From: Acidimicrobiales bacterium
GTDB taxonomy: Bacteria; Actinomycetota; Acidimicrobiia; Acidimicrobiales; RAAP-2
Reading direction: 5' to 3'
Length of the DNA: 50,532 nt
NCBI GenBank assembly: GCA_025362585.1
Contig: JANYFR010000024.1
Span: 1 to 50,532, forward strand
The notes beneath the pieces are model-generated. The model did not search any database, was not told where the DNA came from, and saw nothing but the letters and a program-made list of their open reading frames with translations. How positions within the stretch are numbered: the first letter of the stretch is position 1; each line of letters begins with the position of its first letter. Below, in pieces: positions 31,667 through 38,461 of this stretch. A program made the translations under genes and the position numbers.

Positions 31667-33547
31667 ATGAGCACGTATCGCGAGGCCTGGGAACAGAGCG
31701 TCTACCGTCCCGAGCAGTTCTGGGGCGACGCGGCCAAATCCATCAGCTGGTACCGAGAACCGACGATCGTCCTCGACCAGAGCAGAGCCCCGCTCTATCA
31801 ATGGTTCGCCGACGGCGAGCTCAACACGTGCTTCAACGCCCTCGATCGCCACGTTGACCAAGGCCGTGGTGAGCGGCTCGCCCTCATCTACGACAGCCCG
31901 GTGACGCACACGACTACTCAGTACACCTACTCCCATCTCCTCGACGAGGTCGCTCGCTTTGCCGGGGTGCTCCAATCGCTCGGTGTCACGAAGGGCGACC
32001 GCGTGGTGATTTACATGCCGATGATTCCTCAGGCGGTCATGGCGATGCTCGCGTGCGCTCGCCTCGGGGCAATTCACTCGGTCGTGTTTGGCGGCTTCGC
32101 CGCGCACGAGCTAGCCCTCCGCATTGACGACGCGCGACCCAAGGTCATCGTGACGGCGAGCTGTGGCATCGAGGTCAGTCGCGTCATCGAGTACAAACCG
32201 CTGGTCGACGCCGCCCTCGAAGAGTGCGTGCACCGGGTCGCGCACTGTGTCGTCGTGCAGCGTCCCGAGGCGACGGCGTCGATGGTCGCGGGTCGCGACG
32301 TCGACTGGGACGAGGCCATACGCGTCGCGTCGGCGGTGCCGTGCGTCGCGCTGCGCGCGACGGATCCGCTCTACATCCTCTATACGTCGGGCACCACCGG
32401 CCGCCCGAAGGGCGTCGTTCGCGACAATGGCGGCCACGCCGTCGCGCTCGCGTGGAGCATGACGAACATCTACGACACCAACCCTGGCGAGGTGTTCTGG
32501 GCCGCGTCGGACGTCGGCTGGGTCGTCGGCCACTCCTACATTGTCTACGGGCCCCTGCTCGCAGGCTGCACGACCGTCCTCTTCGAGGGCAAGCCCGTCG
32601 GCACGCCCGACGCCGGCGCCTACTGGCGCGTCATCGCCGAGCACGGCGTGAAGACGCTCTTCACGGCGCCGACCGGCTTTCGCGCGATCCGGCGCGAGGA
32701 TCCGAAGGGCGCCCTCTTCGCGAACTACGATCTCTCGTCCTTGCGATTCCTCTTTCTCGCCGGCGAACGGCTCGACCCCGAGACGTACGAGTGGGCGAGG
32801 GAGCTCCTCGGGGTGCCGGTTATCGACCACTGGTGGCAGACCGAGACCGGCTGGGCGGTCGCCGCGAACCTGATGGGCCTCGACCCCATGGCGACGAAAC
32901 CCGGCTCCCCGACGGTGCCAGTGCCGGGATTCGACGTGCGCATCCTGGACGAGAGCGGTGACGAGGTCGCCCCCGGCACCGAGGGCTACATCACGATCCG
33001 CACTCCCATGCCTCCGGGGTGCACGTCGAGGGTATGGGGTGACGACGACAAGTTCTTCGACGCGTACCTCGGGCAGTTCCCCGGGTACTACCTCACCGGC
33101 GACGGCGGACACTTCGACGATGAGGGCTACCTCTTCGTCATGGGTCGAATTGACGACGTCATCAACGTCGCGGGCCATCGCCTCTCGACGGGCGAGATCG
33201 AAGAGATCATCGCTGGTCACCCCGACGTGGCCGAGTGCGCGGTGATTGGGGTCGCCGACGAACTGAAGGGCCAGGTGCCGCGCGGCCTCGTGGTCTTGAA
33301 AGTCGGCGTCGATCGCGACCACGCGGCGATCGCCGCCGAACTCGTCCAGCGGGTGCGCGATCAGCTCGGCGCCGTCGCGTCGCTACGGCGAGTGGACGTC
33401 GTGGCGGCCCTACCCAAGACCCGTTCGGGCAAGGTGCTGCGAAAGAATATGCGCGCCATCGCTGACGGCATCGATATCGCGGTGCCCTCGACGATTGAGA
33501 GTCCGGCGACCCTCGAGGACCTTCGGAGGATCCTGCGCGCCGACTGA
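31667..33547 (+). CDS. Acetyl/propionyl-CoA synthetase (AMP-forming; PrpE-like)
   Basis: 626 residues. The order of motifs is that of acyl-CoA synthetases: ADP-binding YTSGTTGRPKGVVRDNGGHAVALAWSM near 237, SDVGWVVGHSYIVYGPLLAG, DHWWQTETGW near 386 and GRIDDVINVAGHRLSTGEIEEI. The VRDNGGHAVAL stretch is typical of propionyl-CoA synthetase PrpE. The C-terminal LPKTRSGKVLRK holds the active-site Lys589 within a P-x4-G-K motif, the usual site of reversible lysine acylation. It activates a short-chain acid to acyl-CoA with ATP. Its 3' end meets an operon for an acetyltransferase and a deacetylase. Confidence 0.92.
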   Translation: MSTYREAWEQSVYRPEQFWGDAAKSISWYREPTIVLDQSRAPLYQWFADGELNTCFNALDRHVDQGRGERLALIYDSPVTHTTTQYTYSHLLDEVARFAGVLQSLGVTKGDRVVIYMPMIPQAVMAMLACARLGAIHSVVFGGFAAHELALRIDDARPKVIVTASCGIEVSRVIEYKPLVDAALEECVHRVAHCVVVQRPEATASMVAGRDVDWDEAIRVASAVPCVALRATDPLYILYTSGTTGRPKGVVRDNGGHAVALAWSMTNIYDTNPGEVFWAASDVGWVVGHSYIVYGPLLAGCTTVLFEGKPVGTPDAGAYWRVIAEHGVKTLFTAPTGFRAIRREDPKGALFANYDLSSLRFLFLAGERLDPETYEWARELLGVPVIDHWWQTETGWAVAANLMGLDPMATKPGSPTVPVPGFDVRILDESGDEVAPGTEGYITIRTPMPPGCTSRVWGDDDKFFDAYLGQFPGYYLTGDGGHFDDEGYLFVMGRIDDVINVAGHRLSTGEIEEIIAGHPDVAECAVIGVADELKGQVPRGLVVLKVGVDRDHAAIAAELVQRVRDQLGAVASLRRVDVVAALPKTRSGKVLRKNMRAIADGIDIAVPSTIESPATLEDLRRILRAD

Positions 33548-33551
33548 CGAC

Positions 33552-34589
33552 CTAGGACGTCGACGTGACGGCGTCGGGCGGCCGATCCGCGTCGTCGCTC
33601 GGGTCCTTCGGCGCGGGAGCGCTGCTCGGGTCGTCGTGGGAGTGGAACTGCACGGTCACGACCTGTTCGGGCCGGCGCTGACTCTCGAGCGCCAGGGCGG
33701 TCAACACCGCCTGGTCGGCGCTCGTGAGGGGCGGCTGCACGAGGCTTCGAGGGTAGAGGTGGCGCACGCGCACGACGTTCAGTTCAGCCGCGTACATCGT
33801 GATCTCGGCGGCGATGAAGAGGAATGACACGAGCCCGAGGATGCTGGCGAAGTAGCCGTAGAGCTGACTGGCGTGGCGCAATTGATGACCGACGAGCCAC
33901 GTTCCGCCGTACTGGAGGGCACTCCACCCAATGGCGGCGCCAATTGCCCCGGAGAGCAGCCACCTCGTCTCGACCGATTTCGGCGTGAGTATCCGAAAGC
34001 CGAGCAGGAAGAGCGTGCCGTTCACGACGAACCCTGCGACGATGGCGACGACCTGGGAGAGTGCGGTCCCTCCACCGAAGGTGACGAAGCCGGCGAGCAC
34101 CGTCGACACGACGACGTTGAGGAAGAGCACGCCCAAAAGTCCGAAACTTCGCCCGAGGCGAGGAACGAATCCGGGACGGATGACGAGGGGCACGTTCCAC
34201 ACGTCGGCCATGGCCCGTTGACCGGCCTGGGTCACGCCGAGCGATCCCCACAGCAGCCAGATCACGCCGAGCGTTAAACGAAGAACGCTATTGGTGCGCA
34301 GCGACGAGATGCCGCCCGGTCGAGCGAGCTGCTGACCAATCACCGGGAACTGGGCCAACGCCGAGTGGATGACGCGATGCTGCAGCGCTAGGTCGTGACC
34401 GAAGAAGATTCCGAGGAGGGTGAAGAGCAGGAGCATGAGGGGAAAGACCGAAAGGACCCCGTAGTACGCGAGGAGGGCCGCCAACGAGCCACACTGGTCG
34501 TCGCCGAACTTCTTCACGACGCCGATCAGCAGCGCAGTCCCGGTGTGGCGCTGCTGGAACGCGTCAATGCGCCGTAGGAGCTTCTTCAT
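33552..34589 (-). CDS. YihY/BrkB family membrane protein
   Basis: 345 residues from ATG 34589 (the TTG at 34616 is a longer alternative). Six membrane helices with the family landmarks DDQCGSLAALLAYYGVLSVFPLMLLLFTLLG, GVTQAGQRAMADVWNVP and ISLLFI-like AAEITMYAAELNVV near the end. YihY/BrkB proteins are of uncertain function; old links to a ribonuclease BN were withdrawn. The C-terminal tail (~35 residues) is polar. Last gene of the GNAT-HDAC-USP operon, 27 bases after the stress-protein gene. Confidence 0.9.
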   Translation of the reverse strand: MKKLLRRIDAFQQRHTGTALLIGVVKKFGDDQCGSLAALLAYYGVLSVFPLMLLLFTLLGIFFGHDLALQHRVIHSALAQFPVIGQQLARPGGISSLRTNSVLRLTLGVIWLLWGSLGVTQAGQRAMADVWNVPLVIRPGFVPRLGRSFGLLGVLFLNVVVSTVLAGFVTFGGGTALSQVVAIVAGFVVNGTLFLLGFRILTPKSVETRWLLSGAIGAAIGWSALQYGGTWLVGHQLRHASQLYGYFASILGLVSFLFIAAEITMYAAELNVVRVRHLYPRSLVQPPLTSADQAVLTALALESQRRPEQVVTVQFHSHDDPSSAPAPKDPSDDADRPPDAVTSTS

Positions 34590-34616
34590 CGCCTCACCCT
34601 TCACGTCGCCGGACAA

Positions 34617-35093
34617 CTATCTTGCCCCACCAGCACGTCCTGGGGCGGATGGCCGGACGGTTCCGCGCGGGTCGCGGCCGGAGGGGACGATGACCAGAGG
34701 AATCGTCGAGCGTTCGGCGAGTTGGAGACTGGTACTGCCGAGCATGAGGCCCGCGTGCACTCCCTGTCCCCTCGAACCGACCACTAGCAGGTCGGCGCCG
34801 GTCGGCTCGTCCCCGGCGCGCAGCATCACCGAGCAGGCGTCGCCGTTGTCGACCAACCAGCGCAGACGCGTGAGTGGAATGCCGGCCTCGCGCGCGAGGT
34901 CGAGGACCGGACCGCGCAACTTCGTAGGATCGTCGGGGTGCTCGAGGTGTTCGAGGAGTCCCACGGCGTGGACGATCACGACGTCCGCGTCGAGAGCGAT
35001 GGCCGTGGTGAAGGCCCAACGGACCGCGACGCTCGCGGGAGGTGACCCGTCGTAACCAACGGCGATTGTCGTGACTTCCTTCATGGGGACCAT
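34617..35093 (-). CDS. Universal stress protein (UspA family)
   Basis: 158 residues from ATG 35093; the internal ATG 35084 (MKEVTTIAVGYDGS) has a better-spaced GAGG and is the more likely start. The Usp fold shows TIAVGYDGSPPASVAVRWAF at the N-terminus and an ATP-binding loop VVGSRGQGVHAGLMLGSTSLQLAERSTIPLVIVP (G-2x-G-9x-G-[ST]). A Pro/Gly/Arg-rich tail follows. In mycobacteria a universal stress protein is a known substrate of a lysine acetyltransferase. Here it is encoded with a GNAT and a deacetylase, separated from the deacetylase stop by only three bases. Confidence 0.93.
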   Translation of the reverse strand: MVPMKEVTTIAVGYDGSPPASVAVRWAFTTAIALDADVVIVHAVGLLEHLEHPDDPTKLRGPVLDLAREAGIPLTRLRWLVDNGDACSVMLRAGDEPTGADLLVVGSRGQGVHAGLMLGSTSLQLAERSTIPLVIVPSGRDPRGTVRPSAPGRAGGAR

Positions 35094-35096
35094 CCT

Positions 35097-36125
35097 CTAT
35101 TCGTTCTGCTCTGCCGCCCGACGCGTGGCGATCATGCGCTCGGATTGTGCGTGGGTCACGGCCTCGGCTCCGGGCCCGCCCTTCGTGGGCGGTTCGGTTT
35201 CGACGTCGGCACCGAGCAGCGCCCCGAGCGTTGCCGCCACTGATCGTCGAACCGCGCCCAGGTCGTAGCCACCTTCCAGAAAGAGCGCGAGCCGACCGGG
35301 TCGAGGAGCGCAGGCCGCGATCGCGCGGGCCAAGATCGCGAAGTCACCGCTCGCCAGCGCGAGCTCAGCGAGAGGATCGGCGCGGTGTGCGTCGAAGCCG
35401 GCCGAGACGAGCACCCAGGTCGGGGCGAACTCGTCGATGACCGGGGCCGCCACTTCGTCCAAGGCGCGGTGCACGACGTCGCCCGTGGCGCCGGCCGGTA
35501 GAGGAATATTGATGGTTCGACCTACGGCGCTGAGCCCGCCGATCTCTCGCGCGCCGCCGCTGCCGGGGAAGAGGGGCCACTGGTGCGTGGAGACGTAGAG
35601 GACATTGGGGTCGTTCCAGAAGATGGACTGGGTCCCGTTGCCGTGGTGCACGTCCCAGTCGACAATGAGAACCCGCTCGCCAGATCTCGTCAACTCGGCG
35701 GCGGCCACTGCCACATTGTTCAATAGACAGAACCCCATTGCTCGGTCACGTGAGGCGTGGTGACCGGGCGGCCTCGCCGCGATGAAGCCGACGCCGTCCC
35801 GGCGACGCTGCAGCTCCTCGATGACGGCGATCCCGGCTCCGGCGCCGTGCTGGGCAACGGACCACGAGTCGTACGTGGCGAAGGTGTCCTGGTCGATGTC
35901 GCCTCCGCCCGCGAAGCAGAATGCCCCGAGCTCATCGAGGTAGCTCGCCTCGTGCACGCGAGCTAGTTGTGCGCGCGACGCAGCCTGGGCGGGAACCACC
36001 ACCAGGTCGTCGCCGAGGTGCAGGTCCGCAACGCCCTGCATCGCTGCCACCAGGCGGTCGGGTCGTTCGGGGTGACCGGGCTCAACGTGGCCGGCGTCGT
36101 CGATGGAACCGTTGATCACGAGCAT
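35097..36125 (-). CDS. Histone-deacetylase-like (AcuC/AphA class) lysine deacetylase
   Basis: 342 residues. HDAC landmarks: HPERPDRLVAAMQ near 18, RPPGHHASRDRAMGFCLLNNVAVAA with the catalytic His pair near 122-123, VDWDVHHGNGTQSIFW with zinc ligands D158 and H160, YVSTHQWPLFPGSGG, and a later GFDAHRADPLAELALASGDF carrying the third zinc ligand. Family members remove acyl groups from lysine (AcuC acts on acetyl-CoA synthetase) or from polyamines. The start overlaps the stop of the GNAT gene by one base, so writer and eraser are made together. Confidence 0.92.
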   Translation of the reverse strand: MLVINGSIDDAGHVEPGHPERPDRLVAAMQGVADLHLGDDLVVVPAQAASRAQLARVHEASYLDELGAFCFAGGGDIDQDTFATYDSWSVAQHGAGAGIAVIEELQRRRDGVGFIAARPPGHHASRDRAMGFCLLNNVAVAAAELTRSGERVLIVDWDVHHGNGTQSIFWNDPNVLYVSTHQWPLFPGSGGAREIGGLSAVGRTINIPLPAGATGDVVHRALDEVAAPVIDEFAPTWVLVSAGFDAHRADPLAELALASGDFAILARAIAACAPRPGRLALFLEGGYDLGAVRRSVAATLGALLGADVETEPPTKGGPGAEAVTHAQSERMIATRRAAEQNE

Positions 36126-36790
36126 CAGGCGCCATCACTTCGCGCCCGTCGCGCCCCTTCGACGCGGACGGTGCGTCGACCTCGACTGGCCCGGCTCTCG
36201 TCGGTCGGCTGAATGGAGAAGCGCGCGGTGATGACCTCCTCGTCGAATCTCGCGTTGACGGCGAAGCCCGATGCCTCAAAGACGCCCATCATGCTGCGAT
36301 TGTCCGCCTGGGTCTCCGCGGTGAACGTGGTAATACCGAGCGACCACGCTTCGTCGGCGAGGTGATCGAGCAGGAGGAGGCCGACGCCCTGATGCTGGTA
36401 CTCGTCGGCGACGATGAAGGCAACCTCGGCTTCGGTGGTCTCGGGAATGCGGTCGAATCGCCCGACCGCTACGAGGGTATCGCCCGTTTCGACGACGAAG
36501 GCGAATCGATCGACGTAATCGACCTGGGTCAGGTGGCGCACCTCGGAGTCAGAGAGGTGAGGGTGAACCGAGAAGTACCGTCGGTAGACGGAGTCTGGCG
36601 ACAGCCCCTCATGAAAACGGACGAGCAACGCAGCGTCTTGGGAGCGGATGGGGCGAAGGTGAAGGAGAACGCCGGGACCGGTCACCACGTCACTGGCTAA
36701 GTTCGACGGATACGGTCGAATCGACCACTGGTCGGCGTGCACTCCATTACTCGGCGAGGTACTCGTCAGTTTCCTAGGGGAGTCGGTCAT
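36125..36790 (-). CDS. GNAT family N-acetyltransferase (candidate protein acetyltransferase)
   Basis: 221 residues. The GNAT core is clear: a beta strand LLHLRPIRSQDAALLVRFHEGLSPDSVYRRYF, then EAEVAFIVADEYQHQGVGLLLLDHLADEAWSLGI, where QHQGVG is the acetyl-CoA pyrophosphate loop, and ETQADNRSMMGVFEASGFAV at the C-terminal side. The Y.RYF and VAVGRFD-type features resemble the GNAT domains of protein acetyltransferases of the Pat group. No cyclic-nucleotide domain is fused. It is the first gene of the operon with a deacetylase and a stress protein, which supports protein lysine acylation as its role. Confidence 0.85.
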   Translation of the reverse strand: MTDSPRKLTSTSPSNGVHADQWSIRPYPSNLASDVVTGPGVLLHLRPIRSQDAALLVRFHEGLSPDSVYRRYFSVHPHLSDSEVRHLTQVDYVDRFAFVVETGDTLVAVGRFDRIPETTEAEVAFIVADEYQHQGVGLLLLDHLADEAWSLGITTFTAETQADNRSMMGVFEASGFAVNARFDEEVITARFSIQPTDESRASRGRRTVRVEGARRARSDGA

Positions 36791-36979: not shown

Positions 36980-38461
36980 TCAGTCGCCGTTCCCCTTCCC
37001 GTTCCCATTGCCACCACCAACACTCGATGTCGACGAGGCGGCGATCGCTGTGGGGTCGATGCCGAGAGAGGTGGCGAGTGCGGCGAGGTCGCTCTGCAAT
37101 GTTGGACCCACCGATTGATCGATGGATCCGTCGTTGACGGCGCCGTCGACGCCAGACGAGGCCTGTCGGAGATCAGAAGTCGCCACGTCGAGATTGCCGG
37201 CGGCGGCGTCACTCACGGCCTGGTTGGCCAGTTGCGCTATTGGCTGGTCGGCCCCGTTCTGGATGGTGCCCGCCGTGACGCCGGCGGCTAAATCGTTAAT
37301 AAGTGCGGTGAGTGATTGAGACGAACCGGACGTCGTCGTGGTCGTGGGCGCCAGCGTTGTGGTGGTCGACGTCGGCGATGTCGTCACGGGCGCCAGCGTC
37401 GTCGTTGGCACCGGTGAGGCGCTGTCACCGGTCAAGCCGTAGACGAGTGCGGCGACGAGAGACAACAGCAGTACTCCGGCGATGAGTTGTTGCCATCGCG
37501 GCAACTTCGTCACGGCCGCAGCTTTGGCCGCAAGCAGGGGCGCAATGATGGCGGTCTGATCGACGTTCACGGTGGTGACGTCGCCCACTGCCCCAATGAG
37601 CACGGTGTTGTCGAGCACCGCGACCGCGCCGATCGAACTGACTGCTTCGCTGGCTGTCGTCCACGGTGCGTCGAAGGCCGTGGTCGCGAGCAGCGTCGAG
37701 ACCTCGGACGCGCGCAGTCGTTGGCTGGGCTCGTGGTTGAGCATCCCGTTGAGCAGCGTCTTCCAAGGGACCGGGAGAGCTGGGGGCAGGGGCACCGGGC
37801 CGGACATTCGTCGAGCAATCACCTCGCCCGGGGTTCCCGCGTAGACGCGTTGGCCGGTCAGACACTCGAGCAGCACAATCCCGAGGGACCAGACATCCGC
37901 TGCCGGGCCGACTTCGTGGTTCTCCAACTGCTCGGGAGCCATGTACGACGTCGTGCCCATTGTCGTACCGGCAATGGTCAGCGTCGTGGCATCGACGAGG
38001 CGCGCAATTCCAAAGTCAGCGAGACGAGCGGCGCCAGCGGTATCGATCAGGATATTGGCGGGCTTCACGTCGCGATGGACGACGCCCCGTTCGTGCACGT
38101 ACGCGAGCCCGTCGGCCAGGGTTGATCCAATAGACGCGGTCGTCGCAGGCGCGAGAGGACCGCGACGAAGCGTTTGGGCCAAGCTCGTGCCGTCGACGAA
38201 GTCCATCACCAGGTAGGCCATGTCGCCGTTCGTTCCCGAGTCGAGTAGGCGCACGAGACAGGGGTGATCAAAGCGACGGAGCGCCCGGGCCTCTTGGGAG
38301 AGCCTCGTCGCGTACTCGGCGTCGGACGACCGGACGATTTTGACGGCGACCTCCGAGCCAGTGCGCTCATCAAATGCTCGAAAGACGTCGGACATACCAC
38401 CTCGCCCCAATAGCGTGACGAGGCGATAGCGATCGTTCAGCAGTTCGCCGATTGAACTCAT
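36980..38461 (-). CDS. Receptor-type Ser/Thr protein kinase (PknB-like) without PASTA domains
   Basis: 493 residues. The kinase domain has LLGRGGMSDVF near 18, Lys41 in EVAVKIV, HRDVKPANIL near 129, LADFGIA near 148 and SYMAPEQ near 172, all intact. After ~280 residues comes a cytoplasmic linker, a membrane helix (LIAGVLLLSLVAALVYGL) near 332-349, a Thr-rich stalk and a ~110-residue extracellular helical domain rich in Ala/Asp (LAAGVTAGTIQNGADQPIAQLANQAV), ending in Gly/Asn repeats. Many actinobacterial relatives carry PASTA repeats outside; this one does not. The ligand is unknown. Confidence 0.92.
   Translation of the reverse strand: MSSIGELLNDRYRLVTLLGRGGMSDVFRAFDERTGSEVAVKIVRSSDAEYATRLSQEARALRRFDHPCLVRLLDSGTNGDMAYLVMDFVDGTSLAQTLRRGPLAPATTASIGSTLADGLAYVHERGVVHRDVKPANILIDTAGAARLADFGIARLVDATTLTIAGTTMGTTSYMAPEQLENHEVGPAADVWSLGIVLLECLTGQRVYAGTPGEVIARRMSGPVPLPPALPVPWKTLLNGMLNHEPSQRLRASEVSTLLATTAFDAPWTTASEAVSSIGAVAVLDNTVLIGAVGDVTTVNVDQTAIIAPLLAAKAAAVTKLPRWQQLIAGVLLLSLVAALVYGLTGDSASPVPTTTLAPVTTSPTSTTTTLAPTTTTTSGSSQSLTALINDLAAGVTAGTIQNGADQPIAQLANQAVSDAAAGNLDVATSDLRQASSGVDGAVNDGSIDQSVGPTLQSDLAALATSLGIDPTAIAASSTSSVGGGNGNGKGNGD

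Follow-up and report, generated by a model that had tools for sequence, protein, structure and literature searches.

The window analysed here is a stretch of 50,532 nucleotides on contig JANYFR010000024.1 of an Acidimicrobiales bacterium (assembly GCA_025362585.1; 2.09 Mb in 64 contigs, 96% complete). The system in question is a minus-strand operon that encodes a GNAT-family acetyltransferase (GNAT), a protein of the Zn-dependent histone deacetylase family (HDAC) and a universal stress protein (USP), with an acyl-CoA synthetase gene running towards it on the opposite strand. Gene features, coordinates and gene order agree with an initial annotation that was made from the DNA letters alone. The operon genes and their diagnostic sites are the following:

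36125-36790, minus strand: GNAT, probable stand-alone Pat-type protein acetyltransferase, 221 aa, first gene of the operon (Pfam Acetyltransf_1, 48.3 bits)
36425-36427, minus strand: codon of GNAT Glu122, the catalytic-base position, aligned with Glu235 of Mycobacterium tuberculosis Pat chain 4ava
36380-36397, minus strand: predicted acetyl-CoA-binding loop of GNAT, Q132-HQGV-G137, with Q132, G135 and G137 conserved
35097-36125, minus strand: HDAC, probable class II-like member of the Zn-dependent deacetylase family, 342 aa (Pfam Hist_deacetyl, 271 bits)
35757-35762, minus strand: catalytic His-His pair of HDAC, H122-H123, in conserved columns
34617-35093, minus strand: USP, 158 aa, with a possible second start at Met4 (Pfam Usp, 60 bits)
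34734-34778, minus strand: predicted nucleotide-binding motif of USP, G106-x2-G109-x9-G119-S120, in conserved columns

Mapping the operon onto 37 genomes of the genus (window genome included; HDAC counted as present at E<=1e-100), we found HDAC in 27 and the same-strand order GNAT, HDAC, USP in 24 of these, the window genome among them. The ten genomes that lack HDAC also lack GNAT, save for weak, distant matches to both in G009. Among further genus members from a sample of the order, G167 carries the trio, and G105 and G139 have neither HDAC nor GNAT. The exceptions to the trio are G021, in which the contig ends just upstream of HDAC and USP still lies downstream, and two genomes (G034 and G014) that are weighed below. 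Among the trio genomes, HDAC can be as little as 63% identical to the window copy, and few of the other window neighbours tested recur, an upstream Ser/Thr kinase gene being near HDAC in just 4 of 27 loci (the window genome, G000, together with G003, G010 and G034), so the conservation of the trio is not a simple lack of rearrangement. Moreover, the window genome has just two USP matches and 15 GNAT matches, and the recurrence of one order in 24 of 27 genomes is therefore more than chance. Thus, the conserved unit consists of three genes, GNAT-HDAC-USP, and not of four plus a synthetase.

The three genes are also tightly coupled. In the window, GNAT and HDAC share base 36125, the one-base overlap that had been recognized initially, and HDAC and USP are 3 bp apart. 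Across 25 loci, a candidate HDAC start always lies between -4 and +3 nt from the GNAT stop and a candidate USP start between -4 and +9 nt from the HDAC stop; HDAC and USP overlap by 4 nt in 20 of them, the window being among the five in which they do not. Named contigs with close HDACs overlap the set of genus genomes, and their counts are kept separate: the trio is present in eight of the nine whose HDAC identity is at least 62%. Among the 71 named contigs with HDAC identity of 58% or less, many with flanks cut by contig ends, detection models trained on genus sequences found no adjacent Pat-type GNAT or trio-like USP. One named contig (L069), titled Acidobacteria bacterium isolate G2_25, has an HDAC locus that matches the genus of the window and is probably a mislabelled metagenome-assembled genome. 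In G034 (L161, L178), some 32 kb from HDAC, there is a GNAT copy that contains an in-frame TAA, perhaps the trace of a broken-up operon.

The GNAT is closest to protein-acetylating Pat enzymes in both sequence and fold. Against PDB sequences, it matches the GNAT domain of Streptomyces lividans Pat (4nxy, 3e-27; 4u5y, 1e-26) and M. tuberculosis Pat (5e-19). Its predicted structure (pLDDT, the predicted local distance difference test, 82; residues 1-21 below 50) best matches 4u5y, the S. lividans domain crystallised with the C-terminal domain of acetyl-CoA synthetase (Z 25.6; 1.5 Å over 163 residues), and the top fold match outside the Pat/PatZ group reaches Z 17.9. Glu122, which phmmer aligns with Glu235 of 4ava, has at most one exception among 24 GNATs, as do Q132, G135 and G137. 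The protein is a GNAT domain alone, with no fused regulatory domain of types I-III, which corresponds to type IV in the architecture scheme of PMC8556138, and the full-length NCBIfam model of mycobacterial Pat matches it below the cut-off (104 versus 460). No AcuA is named among its 34 PDB matches at E<=1 or among its NCBIfam matches, and we reject an identity with AcuA on these names of database matches, not on a tree or a direct comparison with AcuA. The GNAT is thus probably a stand-alone Pat-type enzyme with predicted acetyltransferase activity. In a tree of 29 sequences, of whose 26 inner branches only six are well supported, the genus GNATs form one group (92/99) beside PatA domains; the lineage has probably, though not certainly, lost the regulatory domain of Pat.

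The HDAC has all the residues expected of its family, including the Zn ligands, the His-His pair and the tyrosine: H122, H123, D156, D158, H160, D245 and Y287 each have at most one exception among 25 sequences. Among the best 60 of 137 PDB matches, its best solved relatives are HDAC6 and HdaH. By name, these 60 are class II HDACs, HdaH, a lysine deacylase, a hydrolase, ApaH or entries with no telling name, and one of them titled 'Acetoin utilization protein' (5li3) scores equal to HDAH 5g0x. HDAC1, HDAC2, HDAC3 and HDAC8 are absent from the best 60 of 137 and must therefore score below 121.7 bits, compared to 193.5 for the best single-domain match. Bacterial deacylases have been sorted into five clusters, with class II enzymes in cluster 1 and AcuC in cluster 2c (Graf et al., PMC11532494). 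By the names of its best matches, the window HDAC is probably class II-like, of the cluster 1 kind, and predicted to be a deacetylase; the AcuC-like (class I, cluster 2c) identity first proposed for it is rejected by the same names, not by a tree. The window genome has a single HDAC match at E<=1e-20 and no sirtuin match, and may thus possess no other member of the two known deacetylase families. Sirtuins are present in 5 of the 37 genus genomes versus 19 of 24 genomes from other families of the order.

The fold of the USP and its conserved residues are of the nucleotide-binding type. The best fold matches of its model are TeaD (Z 17.9) and cAMP-bound MSMEG_3811 (Z 17.5), and G13, D15, G106, G109, G119 and S120 are identical in all 25 USPs compared. 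G-x2-G-x9-G-S in the window protein is the motif of nucleotide-binding USPs (G-x2-G-x9-G-S/T), and nucleotide binding is accordingly a prediction. After the second strand, a signature, [HN][AS]xG[LIM], is found in 16 of 16 HDAC-linked USPs (12 from trios plus G039, G040, G080 and G153) and in none of seven others; the tally was made post hoc, for the most part on the sequences in which the signature had been noticed. These came from a search with a model trained on the genus, and the pattern also allowed Y in the first position, so the result is descriptive and does not amount to independent confirmation. Linked and other USPs are divided by a branch with support 75/91. Separately, Cys87-Ser88 (window 34830-34835) is identical in the 25 genus USPs compared; among named contigs, the cysteine is absent from L075 and threonine replaces the serine in L072, and the HDAC-linked USPs of G039, G040, G080 and G153 are without both. 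It is possibly a redox or interface site in part of the USP group.

Outside the genus, we examined 148 genomes of the order (HDAC at E<=1e-60, Pat-like GNAT at E<=1e-15) and found HDAC in 108, Pat-like GNAT in 72 and both in 67. The two genes are adjacent or one gene apart in seven of these 67: two genomes of the genus (G000 and G167) and five from four families outside it (G039, G040, G161, G128 and G157). Of these five, G039 has a single gene between the two, and the other four have them as direct neighbours. The arrangements differ, with PatA divergent from HDAC in G040 and G161, upstream of HDAC in the same direction in G128 and G157, and an HDAC-USP pair facing a short GNAT in G039. By a rough hand estimate that assumes about 3,000 randomly ordered genes per genome, the five cases outside the genus compare with about 0.09 expected among 65 genomes. 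Of 37 HDAC loci from outside the genus, which come from the genome searches, three (G161, G128 and G157) were fetched because Pat lies near HDAC; the tally of Pat adjacency hence uses the 148-genome sample, which was not selected in this way. Each of the three PatA proteins tested (G161, G157 and G128) combines a GNAT domain with CoA-binding, succinyl-CoA-ligase and ATP-grasp domains, as in the type II Pat layout of PMC8556138. A same-strand USP gene lies within 1 kb downstream of HDAC in 4 of 37 order loci outside the genus (G039, G040, G080 and G153), and G046, which belongs to neither the 148-genome sample nor the genus, has GNAT and HDAC side by side. The Pat-HDAC pairing, as read from these sequences, is older than the genus. 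In G153 (L234), where HDAC and Pat are about 5 kb apart, an HDAC-USP pair is followed some 5 kb on by a second USP gene directly before PatA and then by a tandem USP, a USP-Pat linkage with no HDAC between. Another Acidimicrobiia metagenome-assembled genome has a distant GNAT-like gene (L144:5174-5941, minus strand; a weak, partial match) divergent to a class II-like HDAC.

Downstream of the trio, the window has two further genes that had been drawn into the proposed switch:

33552-34589 (ATG start; alternative TTG start at 34616), minus strand: YihY/BrkB-family membrane protein (Pfam BrkB, 102.6 bits)
31667-33547, plus strand: AMP-forming PrpE-like acyl-CoA synthetase, 626 aa, convergent with the operon, candidate target
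33431-33433, plus strand: codon of Lys589, in PKTRSGK (residues 583-589 of the synthetase), candidate acylation site

The YihY gene abuts USP if the TTG start is used and follows a 27 bp gap with the ATG start, and 4 bp separate its 3' end from that of the synthetase gene. Scans of the window gave no promoter-like sites and six terminator-like sites versus 2.4 expected, none of the six inside the convergent 4-bp gap. A Ser/Thr protein kinase gene (36980-38461) lies directly upstream of GNAT on the same strand. Of the four-gene order initially described, the GNAT-HDAC-USP part recurs and the membrane protein is peculiar to the window: among 25 other loci checked, YihY is beside USP in none of the 24 with at least 1.3 kb of downstream sequence, and we reject it as a member of the unit. 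The synthetase is AMP-forming, and its active-site Lys589 was correctly placed; its substrate name is less firm. Propionate--CoA ligase models are its top NCBIfam matches but fall below their cut-offs (777 versus 955; 759 versus 827), so 'PrpE-like' is the safe name, and it passes the acetate--CoA ligase subfamily NF001208 (681 versus 657). The same NCBIfam search gave no match for USP or HDAC. The closest solved relative of the synthetase is the AMP-dependent synthetase 5gxd (2e-254), and the Acs-like enzyme of the window genome shares the PKTRSGK sequence with the PrpE-like one. That the operon stays near acyl-CoA synthetases is borne out in the window and G003 and, for an Acs-like gene about 2.5 kb away, in G023, and was not seen in the other loci. 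Most relatives thus do not show this neighbourhood, which goes halfway towards refuting the initial proposal on its own terms. For the most part, then, neither the synthetase nor the membrane protein next to the trio has more than an incidental link with it.

Several known systems resemble parts of this operon. Like acuABC-acsA of Bacillus subtilis, it couples the genes of a GNAT, a deacetylase of HDAC fold and a third protein within a single operon, in the window with an AMP-forming synthetase on the opposite strand, and the 4-nt overlap of deacetylase and third gene in most trio loci, though not in the window, is also reported for acuB-acuC (PMC13039410). Unlike the acu system, the GNAT is Pat-type, the HDAC appears class II-like whereas AcuC belongs to class I, a USP that comes last stands in for the CBS-ACT protein AcuB, which is in the middle, and the synthetase is mostly not near the trio. 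The outline of an acu-like switch therefore survives as a conserved, tightly coupled pair of GNAT and Zn deacetylase, shorn of its likeness to AcuA and AcuC, its USP target and its membrane protein, and the analogy is best read as 'works like' rather than 'is'. The closest GNAT domain by sequence and fold is that of S. lividans PatA, a type II Pat, from which the trio GNAT differs in being partnered with an HDAC. Mycobacterial Pat (Rv0998/MSMEG_5458) shares the GNAT family, the aligned catalytic glutamate and the involvement of a USP, but its GNAT is fused to a domain for cyclic AMP (cAMP), which the trio GNAT lacks, and the trio USP has no conserved lysine. The HDAC resembles the cluster 1 class II-like deacylases (HdaH/HDAC6) in sequence and active-site residues and differs from them in its operon with a Pat GNAT and a USP; the USP is like TeaD and MSMEG_3811 in fold and unlike them in its link to a deacetylase and its signature.

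These results can be accounted for by a reversible protein-lysine acylation switch with the trio at its core, an explanation on which we are evenly divided. The Pat-type GNAT, with no built-in regulatory domain, would attach acyl groups to protein lysines, and the class II-like Zn deacetylase would take them off. An adenine-nucleotide-binding USP would adjust the pair, most likely through contact with the deacetylase of the kind that AcuB makes with AcuC. The likeliest substrates would be AMP-forming acyl-CoA synthetases with the PKTRSGK lysine (Lys589 of the PrpE-like enzyme, and the Acs-like enzyme); with acyl-CoA in good supply, their acylation at this residue would turn them off. Not all parts of the scheme are equally secure. 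GNAT and HDAC probably oppose each other on protein lysines. We lean slightly towards an acyl-CoA synthetase as a main substrate, the AMP-forming CoA ligases being the targets for which Pat enzymes are best known (PMC4053389); a broader target set is possible. That the USP regulates the pair falls just short of an even proposition. Bacillus AcuB is reported to bind adenine nucleotides or diadenosine tetraphosphate (Ap4A) and to inhibit AcuC (PMC13121692, PMC13039410), and given this precedent, the conserved nucleotide motif and the tight coupling to HDAC, the USP would most likely regulate HDAC, and possibly GNAT, in trans. More tentatively, the USP may read ATP, AMP, cAMP or Ap4A, with the bound nucleotide gating its control of both the HDAC-type deacetylase and the acetyltransferase paired with it.

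Other explanations deserve to be weighed against this switch. A switch dedicated to the neighbouring PrpE-like synthetase, as first proposed, would fit the convergent neighbour in the window and in G003, the PKTRSGK motif of the window enzyme and the distribution of PrpE orthologues (at least 74% identity), which are present in 15 of 27 HDAC-bearing versus 0 of 10 HDAC-lacking genus genomes (Fisher p 0.002, uncorrected for relatedness and genome size). However, 12 of the 27 HDAC genomes are without a PrpE orthologue, ten of these with the full trio, and of the 15 genomes with PrpE, 13 carry it on a different contig from HDAC (in one of the 13, G027, too little sequence follows USP to judge adjacency), which makes a dedicated switch unlikely. 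The pair could instead act broadly on many proteins, synthetases being only some of them, with the USP tying it to stress or energy state. The trio persists in 5 of 24 genomes (G008, G015, G028, G035 and G036) that have no Acs or PrpE match at E<=1e-120 and that either use other targets or miss these genes in their assemblies; AcuC itself is reported to have several substrates (PMC13039410), and the window genome has no second HDAC match at E<=1e-20 and no sirtuin match. The known preference of Pat enzymes for CoA ligases points the other way, and we regard broad action as a credible but lesser prospect. Action of GNAT and HDAC on a small molecule, a polyamine or xenobiotic, is suggested by the polyamine amidohydrolases of HDAC fold and the dimethoate and propanil hydrolases among solved HDAC relatives (best 60 of 137), but is improbable given that the GNAT is nearest to protein-acetylating Pats, diamine and phosphinothricin GNATs matching it at E 0.02 or worse and phosphinothricin GNATs reaching Z of at most 16.7.

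The USP could also be a substrate of the pair rather than its regulator, as the initial annotation had it by analogy with mycobacteria. A USP is reported as a substrate of the cAMP-activated mycobacterial Pat (PMC8556138), and the conserved adjacency of USP to the pair would suit such a role. The window protein has two lysines, of which K5 is present in 6 and K58 in 1 of 25 orthologues; no column has lysine in 40% of the 25 sequences, and 13 of 26 USPs, that of G003 among them, are lysine-free across the region scored, which spans the USP domain, the 12 residues preceding it and the C-terminal tail. With half of the orthologues devoid of lysine and none conserved, the USP cannot be a general lysine-acetylation target, and as a conserved function this is contradicted. 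We therefore reject it, N-terminal acetylation being possible, and hold a substrate role for the USP to be very improbable. As a separate observation, GNAT, HDAC and USP together have a lysine content of 0.53% over 26 loci versus 1.94% in other open reading frames of the same loci, chosen by a simple codon-position rule, and in six loci no lysine was counted across all three proteins. Self-protection by lack of lysine is not specific to this operon: HDACs from other loci that we assigned to Acidimicrobiia contain just as little lysine (0.32%), with a ratio to neighbours of 0.19 in the one group as in the other, and in other phyla, too, HDACs have less lysine than the proteins around them (ratio 0.40).

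Several observations weigh against the acylation switch as proposed. Cluster 1b bacterial relatives of the HDAC are reported to differ in activity, with three of four seemingly inactive on one acetyl-lysine test substrate (PMC11532494), and S. lividans Pat is reported to acetylate S. lividans Acs poorly in vitro (PMC4053389). The five trio genomes without an Acs or PrpE match count here as well, and a PrpE-like gene neighbours the operon in no more than 2 of 26 loci, the window and one of the 25 others. In G034, HDAC has neither GNAT nor USP adjacent, G014 has a more distant HDAC that stands alone, and GNAT and HDAC are adjacent in the named contig L077 with no USP next to them. In the order sample, 60 of the 67 genomes with both genes show no nearness of HDAC and Pat, partly from short contigs. 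Finally, the USP model (pLDDT 79) falls below 50 in the nucleotide loop, residues 109-118.

The most interesting point of the GNAT-HDAC-USP operon is the role of its USP; that of most USPs is, to our knowledge, unclear. A literature search by title and the opening of the abstract, with subscription papers and preprints outside its scope, found no such operon. Regulation of the HDAC-type deacetylase AcuC by AcuB is the subject of two papers from 2026 (PMC13121692, PMC13039410), and an operon of Pat, class II-like HDAC and USP would offer a small, direct test of USP control over protein deacetylation. We tentatively suggest that an acu-like switch has here been rebuilt from other parts, with a sensorless Pat, with a class II-like HDAC in genomes that mostly lack a sirtuin, and with a USP taking the position of AcuB. 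If true, the coupled acetylase-deacetylase-sensor design would have arisen more than once from different protein families, in this case in a genus where few genomes (5 of 37) have a sirtuin.

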